From assembly GCF_018913465.1 (NCBI RefSeq), contig NZ_JABAPM010000005.1, positions 62,001 through 126,000 of the forward strand: a stretch of DNA of 64,000 nucleotides, written 5' to 3'. The DNA comes from Arcanobacterium phocae. GTDB taxonomy: Bacteria > Actinomycetota > Actinomycetes > Actinomycetales > Actinomycetaceae. Shown here piece by piece: positions 35,000-38,777 of this stretch. How positions within the stretch are numbered: the first letter of the stretch is position 1; each line of letters opens with the position of its first letter. The notes beneath the pieces are model-generated. The model had not been told where the DNA came from. It worked only from the letters and a program-made list of their open reading frames with translations, and searched no databases. A program made the translations under genes and the position numbers.

Positions 35000-36109
35000 A
35001 TGATGATCTACAGACAAGGCGTTATTCTCACACTTCGTCGCAGCTGGAGTGCGGCGGCCGAATATCTCGTACAACTAGATGACGGACGCGAAGTCAAAGC
35101 ATTAGGTTATGTACCAATCGTCGGTGAGTTATCAGCCGGCGATCGGGTTATTTTATCTGCCTCCGCCTATGAACGTGGGTTGGGCACCGGTGGATATATG
35201 ATGATCGTCCTAGCCCCTGAACACTTGCCTGCAGATCCCCCGCCGCAGCCGGGTCACATCGTTAAAGCTCGCTATCTGCCGCAACAGTTCATGGTACAAG
35301 GGGTTGATGAACAAGAATCTCCGCACCATGATCTACTGGAAAACGCCGATTCGATTGACAGTATGCCCGTCGTCGTAGCTGACCTACATTCTGCGCTACC
35401 TGCAATTACTATCGGTATTCGCTCACGTAAGCCAGAAGCCCGAATCGCCTACATTATGACCGACGGTGGTGCACTACCAGCATGGTTCTCTATGGCAGCC
35501 GCTGGTTTACGCCAAGAAGGACATATCGTAGGCACGATCACGTGCGGTCAAGCTTTTGGCGGTGACTTAGAAGCAGTCAATGTACACAGTGCACTCTTAG
35601 CTGCCCGGCACGTCTGGCAAGCAGACATAGCCATCGTGGCACAGGGACCCGGAAACCTTGGAACTGGAACGCGTTGGGGATTCTCTGGAGTCGCCTGCGG
35701 CGATGCCCTGAACGCTGTCGAAACTTTAGGCGGAATTCCAATTGCGTGCGTACGGATGTCGAATGCCGATCAACGCGGACGACACTACGGAGTTTCACAC
35801 CATACGCTGCGAGTCCTGCGTGATGTCGTAAAGGTCAATTGCTATGTGCCACTTCCCCAGTCCACCACTTTGCCTAAGGATCTGATTCCGCGATCCTGGT
35901 TTGACGTCGTCGATGCTCAAACCCGCGAACTGGAATCATATCGGCATGTCACACTCGCTAGCGTAAACTGTGACGGTTTATACGAGGCTCTGACACATTC
36001 GCCAGTTGGTTTGCGCACAATGGGCCGCACACTGGATGAGGACGTTTCATCCTTCATCGCAGCAGCGGCCGCTGGTCGTTATGCTACTGGTATGATCCAG
36101 CCAGATTGA
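35000..36109 (+). CDS. DUF3866-family protein of unknown function
   Basis: The 369 aa product matches my memory of the actinobacterial DUF3866 family. It opens with a small OB/SH3-like barrel (about residues 1-75, RQGVILTLRRSWSAAAEYLV, GDRVILSASAYERGLGTGG). A Rossmann-like body follows with IAYIMTDGGALPAWFSMA, GHIVGTITCGQAFGGDLEAV, IVAQGPGNLGTGTRWGFSG and HYGVSHHTLRVL; the last two are strongly conserved-looking and could bind a ligand. No catalytic assignment is possible. It is divergent from pafB and ends three bases before the convergent ribY stop. Confidence 0.8.
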   Translation: MMIYRQGVILTLRRSWSAAAEYLVQLDDGREVKALGYVPIVGELSAGDRVILSASAYERGLGTGGYMMIVLAPEHLPADPPPQPGHIVKARYLPQQFMVQGVDEQESPHHDLLENADSIDSMPVVVADLHSALPAITIGIRSRKPEARIAYIMTDGGALPAWFSMAAAGLRQEGHIVGTITCGQAFGGDLEAVNVHSALLAARHVWQADIAIVAQGPGNLGTGTRWGFSGVACGDALNAVETLGGIPIACVRMSNADQRGRHYGVSHHTLRVLRDVVKVNCYVPLPQSTTLPKDLIPRSWFDVVDAQTRELESYRHVTLASVNCDGLYEALTHSPVGLRTMGRTLDEDVSSFIAAAAAGRYATGMIQPD

Positions 36110-36112
36110 TGA

Positions 36113-37129
36113 CTACTTGTTTGCAGAGCTGAGTTTAACAACCTCAGCGGTGAATGTGCTTAGTGGTGGTACTGCTTTGTCAACAATCCCAGATTCAGCT
36201 AAGAAAGTGCTCATCTTTTCCCATAGCTGAGAATCTTGGTGACCAAATTCGCTGTCGCTGGTATACAACTTGAGGGTGGCATCAAAAACTTTACGGCCCA
36301 ACGCACGTTGATCTGGGTCTGTTAGAGGTGGAACATGCTTAGCAATAATATCCATTGCAGCATCAGGATCCTTTATTGATTCGTTGACACCACGTTCGAT
36401 CGCAGACAGCACACGAGCATAGACTTGTGGATTAAGATTCGACTTCAACGATCCTAAGCCCACTCCTACTAGTGGCATCTGGCCGCCTTTAACCATCGGA
36501 ATTTCGACGACGTCGAGACCAGCGTTTTCTATCGCAATTGAATCATTGTTATTAAAGCCGATGATAGCGTCAACTTGGTGACCAGCCATTGCAGCTGCTT
36601 GCGTGTAACCGATGTATTCCACGGTCATCTTGTCTTTCAGGCCGTAGCTTTCTTCCATTGCCAGCAGGCTGTAATAGTTTTCGCCATACGGACCAGGAAG
36701 CCCAACTTTTTTGCCAACCAAATCAGCTGGCGTTTTAATCCCTGAATCGGCTGTCGTAATCAGCGTCACCGGATATTTCTGATAGAGCGTCGCCCAGTTA
36801 ACAACATCAAGACCTTGAGTCCTGGCTTGCATCATTTCGGTAGCCCCAGCAAAAACAACGTCTTCTTCTCCAGCCTCAAGCGCTCCGAAGAGGGCTTCTT
36901 GTGCACCGTGATGCCGCAAGGTTACATCCAGGCCTTCGTCTGCAAAATATCCTTTATCCAGTGCCACGTAGAGCGGTCCAAACTGTACATCGGGAATGTA
37001 TGTCAGTCCGATGGTCACTTTATCGGGCTCAGTGTTTTTTGGTTGAGCTTGCTCAGCAGGTGCTTGACTGCAGCCAGTCATAATTAACGCAGCAGTGACT
37101 GCGCTGATGAGGGCTAATAATTTTTTCAT
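36113..37129 (-). CDS. ribY: riboflavin-type ABC transporter substrate-binding lipoprotein (NMT1/THI5-like)
   Basis: The 338 aa product has a lipoprotein signal (MKKLLALISAVTAALIMTGC, Cys at residue 20), then a periplasmic-binding fold of the NMT1/THI5 family: VTIGLTYIPDVQFGPLYVAL, KGYFADEGLDVTL, GEEDVVFAGATEMMQAR, DLVGKKVGLPGPYG. That family binds thiamine precursors, sulfonates or riboflavin. The FMN riboswitch upstream of the permease decides for riboflavin uptake (RibXY type). It follows the permease by 11 bases. There is no ATPase gene beside it. Ligand is inferred from the riboswitch, not from residues. Confidence 0.75.
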   Translation of the reverse strand: MKKLLALISAVTAALIMTGCSQAPAEQAQPKNTEPDKVTIGLTYIPDVQFGPLYVALDKGYFADEGLDVTLRHHGAQEALFGALEAGEEDVVFAGATEMMQARTQGLDVVNWATLYQKYPVTLITTADSGIKTPADLVGKKVGLPGPYGENYYSLLAMEESYGLKDKMTVEYIGYTQAAAMAGHQVDAIIGFNNNDSIAIENAGLDVVEIPMVKGGQMPLVGVGLGSLKSNLNPQVYARVLSAIERGVNESIKDPDAAMDIIAKHVPPLTDPDQRALGRKVFDATLKLYTSDSEFGHQDSQLWEKMSTFLAESGIVDKAVPPLSTFTAEVVKLSSANK

Positions 37130-37140
37130 GGTGCTTCCTT

Positions 37141-37893
37141 TTATGAAACTATGGCAAGCACACGGGTTTCAACAGCCCGTAATGCGAGATATATGCCAAC
37201 AGCTAGCAGAGCCAATAATGTGATTGTGGCAAACATTCCTGGCGCATCAGTTAGGTGTTGCGCAGTGGATAATTCGATACCGAGTCCCCGTTGCCCACCG
37301 ATGACAAATTCGCCAACGACTGCCCCGGTTACTGACAGCGTAAAACCGGTACGGACACCAGCGAGAATTCCGGGCAATGCAAGTGGAAACTCAATATCCT
37401 TCATTAGCCGAATACCATGCGCACCGTCTAACCTAGCGGCATCAATAATGTCTGTGTCTACGTCGCGAACACCTACTGCGGTATTGATAATGATGGGGAA
37501 AATAACCATCAAAATACATAAGATCACAATCGGCGTCGTTCCGTATCCGACCCACAAAACTAGTAACGGCGCAAAAGCAACTGCAGGAATTGCTTGTGAC
37601 GCAGCCAGATATGGCTCTAAAGCAGCGCTGAATGGCGCAAAATGGGTAATGCCAAAGCCTACGGGAATGCCGATAAGCGCAGCTATAAGAGATCCAATAA
37701 CTGCGACATGTAGCGTTTGCCAAGCTGACGATAACAAGTATCCGTCATTTAGCCCGTGGATAAGACGGACAAAGACATCGCTCGGATCGGGCAACGCAAA
37801 CGTACTAACGAGTTCAAAATAGGAAACGCATAGCCACAGCACAAGAAGTAGTATCGCAACCGCTAGCGGCGCAATAACTCTATTGCCTCGCAT
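37141..37893 (-). CDS. ribX: riboflavin-type ABC transporter permease
   Basis: Membrane subunit of the importer with the downstream lipoprotein. The ATG at 37893 after GGGGAAGGAAG gives 250 aa (MRGNRVIAPLAVAILLLVLW); a longer frame to 37935 overlaps the expression hairpin. Six membrane spans and the ATPase-contact EAA loop (EFPLALPGILAGVRTGFTLS) are seen, as in binding-protein-dependent permeases of the SsuC/TauC/ThiX group. The FMN riboswitch ends about 60 bases upstream, and its ribosome site is paired in a hairpin at 37903-37920, so translation is likely shut off when FMN is plentiful. Confidence 0.78.
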   Translation of the reverse strand: MRGNRVIAPLAVAILLLVLWLCVSYFELVSTFALPDPSDVFVRLIHGLNDGYLLSSAWQTLHVAVIGSLIAALIGIPVGFGITHFAPFSAALEPYLAASQAIPAVAFAPLLVLWVGYGTTPIVILCILMVIFPIIINTAVGVRDVDTDIIDAARLDGAHGIRLMKDIEFPLALPGILAGVRTGFTLSVTGAVVGEFVIGGQRGLGIELSTAQHLTDAPGMFATITLLALLAVGIYLALRAVETRVLAIVS

Positions 37894-37902
37894 ATCTTCC
37901 TT

Positions 37903-37920
37903 CCCCAGTAGGCACCGGGG
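37903..37920 (-). promoter_or_regulatory. hairpin masking the ribX ribosome site
   Basis: On the minus strand CCCCGGT pairs with ACTGGGG (7 bp, one G-U) with a 4-base loop, and the second arm runs into the GGGGAAGGAAG ribosome site. This fits a riboswitch that acts on translation. Confidence 0.55.
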
Positions 37921-37953
37921 ATAACGCAAATACACCTCATTGAGGCATCCACG

Positions 37954-38066
37954 TTGCTCCTACCATCCGGACTTTAACCGTCGGTTTGGGAATTCCACCC
38001 AATCAACCACTTTCGTGGGTCGCGGACTATAACCGCCGGTTCAGACTTACACTGACCCCGGAGCAC
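37954..38066 (-). ncRNA. FMN riboswitch (RFN element)
   Basis: The minus strand shows the RFN landmarks in order: closing stem TGCTCC...GGAGCA, AACCGGCGGTTATAGTCCGC, a variable ACCCACGAAAGTGGT hairpin, GGTGGAATTCCCAAACCGAC, GACGGTTAAAGTCCGGATGG. The element senses FMN and lies 60 bases before the riboflavin-importer permease. Confidence 0.95.
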
Positions 38067-38114
38067 GTAACTACTATTATTCCACGTTTCTCGTTTAAGA
38101 GCCAATAGCTATGC

Positions 38115-38777
38115 TCAGTGAACGTGCGCTGAAGCAAGGGAACGTAATGCATCAATCTCCGCATGCGTATCTGGTGATCGATACACCGCTGAACCAGCAA
38201 CAAATGTATCTGCTCCAGCTTTAGCAGCGTGCTCGATGGTAGAACGTGATACTCCGCCATCAACCTGAATCCATACGTCTAAACCAGATTTGCGCACTGC
38301 TTCACGAGTCCGTTCCACCTTAGGCATCATCGACTTAATGAAAGATTGCCCGCCAAATCCTGGTTCTACGGTCATGATCAGAATCATGTCGAACTCATCT
38401 AAAATTTCCAGATACGGCTCGATTGCAGTTGCTGGTTTTACTGCGAGTCCTGCCCTAGCTCCCATTGCCCGCAACTCGCGAGCTAGACGTAACGGTGCCT
38501 GAGCAGCCTCCGCATGGAACGTCACCGATTGTGCACCAGCTTCAACGAATGTAGGCGCCCAGCGGTCGGGATCTTCAATCATCAAATGAGTATCAATCGG
38601 AATCGGAGATACGCGAGAAATAGCTTCCACAATTGGTGCGCCCATGGTCAGATTTGGCACAAAGTGGTTGTCCATCACGTCAACATGCGCCCAATCGGCA
38701 TTCGAGATTTTGTCTAGTTCAGCTGTTAACTGCGAGAAGTCACAGTTCAAGATTGACGGGCTGATTCGGATTCCCAT
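38115..38777 (-). CDS. rpe: ribulose-phosphate 3-epimerase
   Basis: Interconverts ribulose 5-phosphate and xylulose 5-phosphate. The 220 aa TIM-barrel product has [13 protein letters not shown] (residues 5-17), the metal-binding [40 protein letters not shown] with its phosphate loop, and [12 protein letters not shown]. It is next to rsmB and fmt, the usual actinobacterial order. The riboflavin locus is its downstream neighbour, with its own riboswitch control. Confidence 0.96.

Follow-up and report, generated by a model that had tools for sequence, protein, structure and literature searches.

How can an importer be energised when the operon that encodes it has no ATPase gene? This question is raised by a two-gene locus of Arcanobacterium phocae that lies within the stretch of 64,000 nucleotides analysed here (the window), part of a genome of 1.86 Mb (G000) whose completeness is given as 100. 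The two genes are of the RibXY type, which has been described as lacking an ATPase gene since 2013, according to the available portions of the papers concerned (PMC3766115; also PMC4418817). In the same portions, RibXY of Roseiflexus castenholzii is said to compensate for a missing rib operon (PMC3766115, PMC4418817).

All elements of the locus are located on the minus strand, in the 5' to 3' order rpe, RFN element, ribX and ribY. The upstream neighbour, rpe (38115..38777), is recognised by TIGR01163 above the cut-off. The aptamer of the FMN riboswitch, or RFN element (37951..38069), matches RF00050 over the full length of the model (1-138), with a cmscan score of 93.8 bits against a gathering score of 66.2 (E 2.7e-20), and is the single match to this family across the whole genome. 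Downstream and on the same strand, ribX (37141..37893) encodes a NitT-type ABC permease of 250 amino acids (PF00528, BPD_transp_1, E 2.4e-27), and ribY (36113..37129) encodes a substrate-binding lipoprotein of 338 amino acids with the NMT1/THI5 fold (PF09084, E 5.4e-35). The ORF finder places the start of ribX at a GTG at 37935, which we rejected because it falls within the leader; the start is the ATG at 37893, which is preceded by a good Shine-Dalgarno sequence, the ribosome site GGGGAAGGAAG, and yields the 250 amino acids. The complete RFN element ahead of a permease and an NMT1/THI5-like protein, as described in the initial annotation, is thus borne out, and so is the RibXY-type identity proposed there: an RFN element, a COG0600-type permease and a COG0715-type binding protein (classes derived from the Pfam and NCBIfam matches) form a single unit. 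We conclude that this is a RibXY unit of the ordinary sort, well conserved and belonging to an already published kind of riboflavin importer. In 29 of the 36 ribXY regions that we mapped (drawn from L083-L130, roughly one for each genus with some extras), rpe lies upstream in the same orientation, so that rpe-RFN-ribX-ribY represents a conserved context. In many of the mapped regions, a DUF3866 gene is found close to ribXY; here it faces ribY from the plus strand (window 35000-36109), and we know of no link of DUF3866 to flavins.

The leader of ribX folds, in order, into the aptamer, a first hairpin and a sequestor. The first expression-platform hairpin (37925..37953, minus strand), obtained by folding the 60 bases before the start codon, touches the last three bases of the aptamer, and the sequestor UCCCCGGU-GCCU-ACUGGGGA (37902..37921, minus strand) covers the start of the Shine-Dalgarno sequence, pairing the first bases of the ribosome site. 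The fold of the whole leader has a z of -2.35. A sequestor hairpin over the ribosome site was also found in the leaders of seven congeners (L036-L040, L042 and L124), and similar hairpins precede ribX in many relatives, if not in all. When 34 of the 58 unique family leaders were scored, the other 24 being left out because they contain no in-frame ATG with a Shine-Dalgarno word, the mean z was -1.17, with 19 leaders below -1, six below -2 and four above 0. A candidate anti-sequestor consists of GGUAGG at the 3' end of the aptamer, which could pair with CCUACU around the hairpin loop, a fit that holds by eye within the genus. The initial annotation attributed control to a hairpin over the ribosome site of ribX, and this now appears probable, given the sequestor on that site and its presence in the congeners; we therefore view translational control of ribX as likely here and as not uniform across the family. 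The ribX leader of another genome (L088, G005) seems, by eye, to be built differently: upstream of ribX it reads CCCCCGGG...CCGGGGG and then TTTTGTCTTTG, which resembles the hairpin and T run of a transcription terminator and would replace the sequestor that is usual elsewhere.

Does this organism depend on riboflavin uptake? We detected no match for ribH or ribB in the genome and one match for a RibF-type FAD synthase. Because the two biosynthetic genes were not found while the FAD synthase is present, uptake is probably needed, and the organism seems unable to make riboflavin. The initial annotation had also advised searching for the rib biosynthesis operon; that search was run in part, covering ribH, ribB and the RibF-type FAD synthase. 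Across the family, RibY-like matches were found in 190 of 200 genomes, some of the weak ones probably being other binding proteins, the RFN element in 120 of 121, and ribH in 31 of 121. In genera g12, g27, g28 and g34, the mapped regions show RFN-ribD...ribH, and the respective genomes have no RibY matches or only weak ones. The gene order rpe-ribG, which we take to be that of M. tuberculosis, raises the idea that ribXY replaced a rib operon at the rpe site; this idea is unsupported because the mapped rib operons of prototrophs in the family are located elsewhere (hrcA-dnaJ follows ribH in L095, L114, L115 and L122). Two further arrangements were observed. One genome (G072), with no ribH match, contains a second FMN riboswitch (100 bits) before a lone riboflavin-synthase-like gene, of the ribE type by BLAST (L104, 5621-6451). 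In genus g23 (L110, L125 and L126, from G022, G119 and G052, respectively), ribXY and a rib biosynthesis operon are no more than about 12 kb apart, and each of the two has a separate FMN riboswitch.

The ligand of RibY is not settled by its fold. The AlphaFold2 model of RibY (mean pLDDT 91.9) most closely resembles a binder of an HMP derivative (3ix1, Z 30.5) and a thiamin binder (4nmy, Z 29.6); the invariant Cys20 is read as the lipobox cysteine. Because thiamin or its precursors are the ligands of the solved folds closest to RibY, one could propose a different cargo for the importer, such as a thiamin precursor, and a different purpose for the switch. We consider this highly improbable, given that an FMN switch precedes the pair in many genera, that the organism is probably a riboflavin auxotroph, and that homologues are reported to bind flavins or to move riboflavin in the available portions of two papers (PMC4418817; PMC11039241). 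By analogy with these homologues, and in view of the riboswitch and the probable auxotrophy, we infer that RibY binds riboflavin.

We then have to account for the energy source. As the initial annotation stated, the importer unit includes no ATPase gene: none is present in the ribXY unit, and on the contig more than 76 kb separate it from the closest good ABC_tran match, a figure that omits weak ABC_tran matches within a single ORF of 968 aa at a distance of about 36 kb. A scan of genome contigs yielded 345 RibX loci, of which we took the best 80, all assigned by their titles to actinobacteria or to MAGs of actinobacteria (Actinomycetaceae genera, Georgenia, Propionibacteriaceae, Pseudoclavibacter and Streptomyces), mostly with about 5 kb of flank per side and some with less. 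An ORF with ABC ATPase motifs was absent from the flanks in 79 of these 80; the exception is L143, with an ABC ATPase-type ORF, and L180 has a partial BLAST match, both on the opposite strand. The genome under study contains 73 ABC_tran matches. None of its eleven ATPase proteins that were scanned against NCBIfam is of the NitT class, and a scan of the whole genome with ntrCD gave a best score of 183 bits, for a PotA-subfamily protein (above its cut-off) that lies beside its own permeases; a NitT ATPase elsewhere in the genome was therefore rejected, none having scored as such. Within the family, ntrCD scores above 190 bits were obtained in 32 of 121 genomes, all 32 of which also have a strong RibY match (E < 1e-45). 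Such RibY matches occur in 107 genomes (nine genomes with none and five with weak ones being excluded), and in 75 of these no such ATPase was found. The threshold of 190 bits is a soft one: it was placed by eye in a narrow gap in the scores (187 to 192 bits), and a full-length match in G019 reaches 182.8 bits.

RibX is NitT-type by profile, fold and tree, and stands outside CUT1 on each of these three counts. Its best NCBIfam models are SaoP and TauC, with no sugar permease among its 16, and the nearest folds to its AlphaFold2 model (mean pLDDT 92) are CmpB (Z 24.7), OpuA (24.4) and NrtB (23.2), followed by SugA (17.6) and MalG (15.2). In the tree, RibX groups with NitT permeases, separate from 11 CUT1-like permeases of the same genome with support of 100/99; these 11 were chosen by the DG motif discussed below, and all 11 later obtained their highest scores with CUT1 models. 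We also considered, and rejected, the presence of another NitT permease system in the genome: RibX matches only two other permeases (28% and 25%), which we interpret as OpuB-like and CUT1-like.

In type I permeases, the EAA loop is the docking site for the ATPase. The EAA loop and coupling helix of RibX (residues 147-158; 37420..37455, minus strand), delineated by alignment and model, contain AARLDGA, with D156 and G157; the loop reads DAARLDGA and thus matches the CUT1 motif EAAxxDG with D in place of E at the first residue. In the AlphaFold2 model, a short helix (147-155) lies between two long helices and is followed by D156-G157. Charged residues of the coupling helix, including a highly conserved aspartate, are predicted to touch the ATPase, according to the available portion of PMC8603345. 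DG is present in all 80 RibX loci (the best 80 of 345); the four residues before it read AAxx in 79 of them and AGxx in one (L201). In alignment A1, the aspartate occurs in 23 of 23 sequences and DG in 22 (L105 reads DT), with A152, A153 and D156 invariant. In contrast, DG was found in none of 37 NitT permease rows that, in a profile alignment within the same family, lie near their own ATPase. These rows come from 20 regions around ntrCD-like ATPases plus L097, L110 and L126, with the ATPase on the same strand within about 2.1 kb and, for L126, just beyond the end of the region. Similarly, none of six plasmid relatives with an adjacent or nearby ATPase gene, taken among the matches listed of 1752 matching records, has DG (they read YGA, MGA, LRA or YNL). 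Among solved permeases, DG is present in SugB, AlgM2 and MalG and missing from NrtB, CmpB, OpuA and PotC. In the tree, RibX and the remaining NitT permeases are each set apart by a branch of modest support (71/76 and 79/93), and it is accordingly possible either that DG was gained in RibX or that it was lost in the rest; instead of being a selected dock, the motif may be an old trait that RibX has kept while the other NitT permeases lost it.

Within the genome, this motif goes with the absence of a neighbouring ATPase gene. Of 33 permease matches, 15 have DG, 15 do not (as determined with a regular expression) and in three the motif was unread. None of the 15 DG permeases has an ABC ATPase match on the same strand within 2.5 kb, and all 15 non-DG permeases do, as do the three unread ones (Fisher p 1.3e-8; the count used 65 of the 73 ATPase matches, the eight weakest, which are at least 35 kb from any DG permease, being omitted). 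Among the 14 DG permeases other than RibX, 13 were scanned, and all 13 scored best with CUT1 models (UgpA, UgpE, MalF, MalG, GlcT and GlcU); the one left out of the scan is L256 (ESAELDGA). The split thus largely reflects the presence of DG in CUT1 permeases, and RibX, which is not a CUT1 permease, joins their side.

These data bear on the possibility that RibXY is energised by another ATPase of the cell, either one belonging to a different importer, for example a PotA-, ProV- or PhnT2-like protein, or the unplaced orphan G000:C7:22774. Several type I ATPases are indeed present in the genome; ATPases that score as NitT-class occur in the 32 family genomes mentioned above, adjoining ribXY in G013, G022 and G052; and an ATPase gene, ribZ, accompanies ribXY in a few Chloroflexi, according to the available portion of PMC4418817. 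However, the importer ATPases that lie beside permeases in this genome pair with permeases that lack DG, and the C7 orphan scores best with heme/ECF-type models, passing no cut-off among the 25 shown. Moreover, where a NitT operon lies beside ribXY, its own permeases are without DG whereas RibX has it. We therefore regard an ATPase of this kind as a possible but rather unlikely motor. Separately, in L097, L110 and L126, a NitT-type ABC importer is divergent from RFN-ribXY, and no second Rfam element was found beside the NitT importer.

The initial annotation had suggested a search for an orphan ATPase gene, and one was found outside the window. The genome contains a single ATPase of the MsiK/UgpC type (G000:C8:19848-20972; NF008653, 463.7 bits against 432), and no permease match is present on its contig. 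Strong MsiK matches (best E <= 1e-150) were obtained in 112 of 121 family genomes. At 1e-150, no match was obtained in the remaining nine (G006, G014, G036, G040, G045, G063, G064, G069 and G087), drafts of at least 70 contigs, three of which (G014, G063 and G087) contain partial matches with 64-89% identity and the other six only weaker ones; seven of the nine carry both an RFN match and a RibY match. G045 is listed as 98% complete and has RFN and RibY, with a weak MsiK match (best E 8.8e-68). Among 21 genomes behind the RibX loci, 16 of which are titled as Propionibacteriaceae or their genera, Pseudoclavibacter or Streptomyces, and two of which (G208 and G209) seem to be duplicates of G041 and G008, with identical coordinates, MsiK is present at 61% identity or more in 19 and lacking in G212 and G217, both MAGs. 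Genomes that lack RibXY have MsiK as well, so that co-occurrence does not point to MsiK in particular. In the available portion of PMC7658222, multitask ATPases are reported for CUT1 sugar importers only, and neither MalK nor YcjV can replace MsmX; therefore, one CUT1 ATPase does not suit every CUT1 permease. From the motif pattern in the sequences, we lean, if only slightly, towards the view that the multitask sugar ATPase MsiK also powers the import of vitamin B2, via a CUT1-type coupling helix on the NitT-type RibX.

E. coli has CUT1 ATPases, MalK and UgpC. In the available portion of PMC4418817, ribXY of C. aurantiacus alone let an E. coli riboflavin auxotroph grow, which, together with the 79 of 80 RibX loci without an ABC ATPase-motif ORF in their flanks, would be compatible with RibXY being a secondary or facilitated carrier that needs no ATPase. 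Nevertheless, the loop that docks the ATPase is strongly conserved, down to the invariant A152, A153 and D156. Furthermore, the E. coli host supplies CUT1 ATPases of its own, and because it has MalK and UgpC, its growth fits MsiK as the motor. An importer that works without an ATPase thus appears improbable.

Taken together, these results translate into a simple scheme for flavin supply. When FMN is scarce, the leader would leave the ribosome site of ribX open. RibY would capture riboflavin outside the cell and a homodimer of RibX would carry it inward, energised through the AAxxDG motif by MsiK, the orphan CUT1-class ATPase that would be common to sugar importers; the RibF-type FAD synthase would then convert riboflavin into FMN and FAD. 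At high FMN levels, the aptamer would close and the hairpin at 37902-37921 would hide the ribosome site. The reading as a whole, that is, an FMN-switched RibXY riboflavin importer in a probable auxotroph, with MsiK as the most likely ATPase, we consider moderately probable. The contribution of the present analysis is a specific, testable candidate ATPase for RibXY: the motif pattern turns the ATPase gap into one named candidate, which can be tested by simple genetics. Our literature search, among the matches listed, returned no title linking MsiK to riboflavin and no paper treating RibXY together with a multitask ATPase, and a search for a RibY riboflavin transporter with an ATPase found no paper. 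If the proposal is true, a shared sugar ATPase would serve a vitamin importer, beyond the sugar-only clients described in the available portion of PMC7658222. By the same token, the flavin supply in many actinobacteria, including auxotrophs such as the one studied here, would depend on an ATPase of sugar uptake.

How does this system compare with those already known? CUT1 sugar importers with a multitask ATPase (MsiK, MsmX or MsmK) share with it the ATPase-less operon and the coupling motif, EAAxxDGA in their case; unlike theirs, the permease here is NitT-type and the substrate is a vitamin. The NitT type (NrtBCD/CmpBCD, SsuABC, TauABC and ThiXYZ) provides the closest permease folds (CmpB and NrtB) and the family of the binding protein, whereas each NitT system sampled here comes with an ATPase gene of its own and without the DG motif. 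RibXY of the Streptomyces roseoflavin (rosB) cluster (PMC11039241; L262) is likewise without an importer ATPase in the stretch seen; its RibX is 50% identical over 85% and carries the motif NAARVDGV, but the pair is located within an antibiotic cluster rather than after rpe. The roseoflavin-cluster RibX on the Streptomyces camelliae plasmid (L262, 4112-4672) has an internal start in its annotation, and its N terminus looks too short. RibXY of Chloroflexi and Actinobacteria is alike in having an FMN riboswitch, a permease with an NMT1/THI5-like binding protein and no ATPase gene, as given in the available portions of PMC3766115 and PMC4418817. The locus described here shows no essential difference from these systems, to which our analysis adds the DG motif and a named candidate ATPase.
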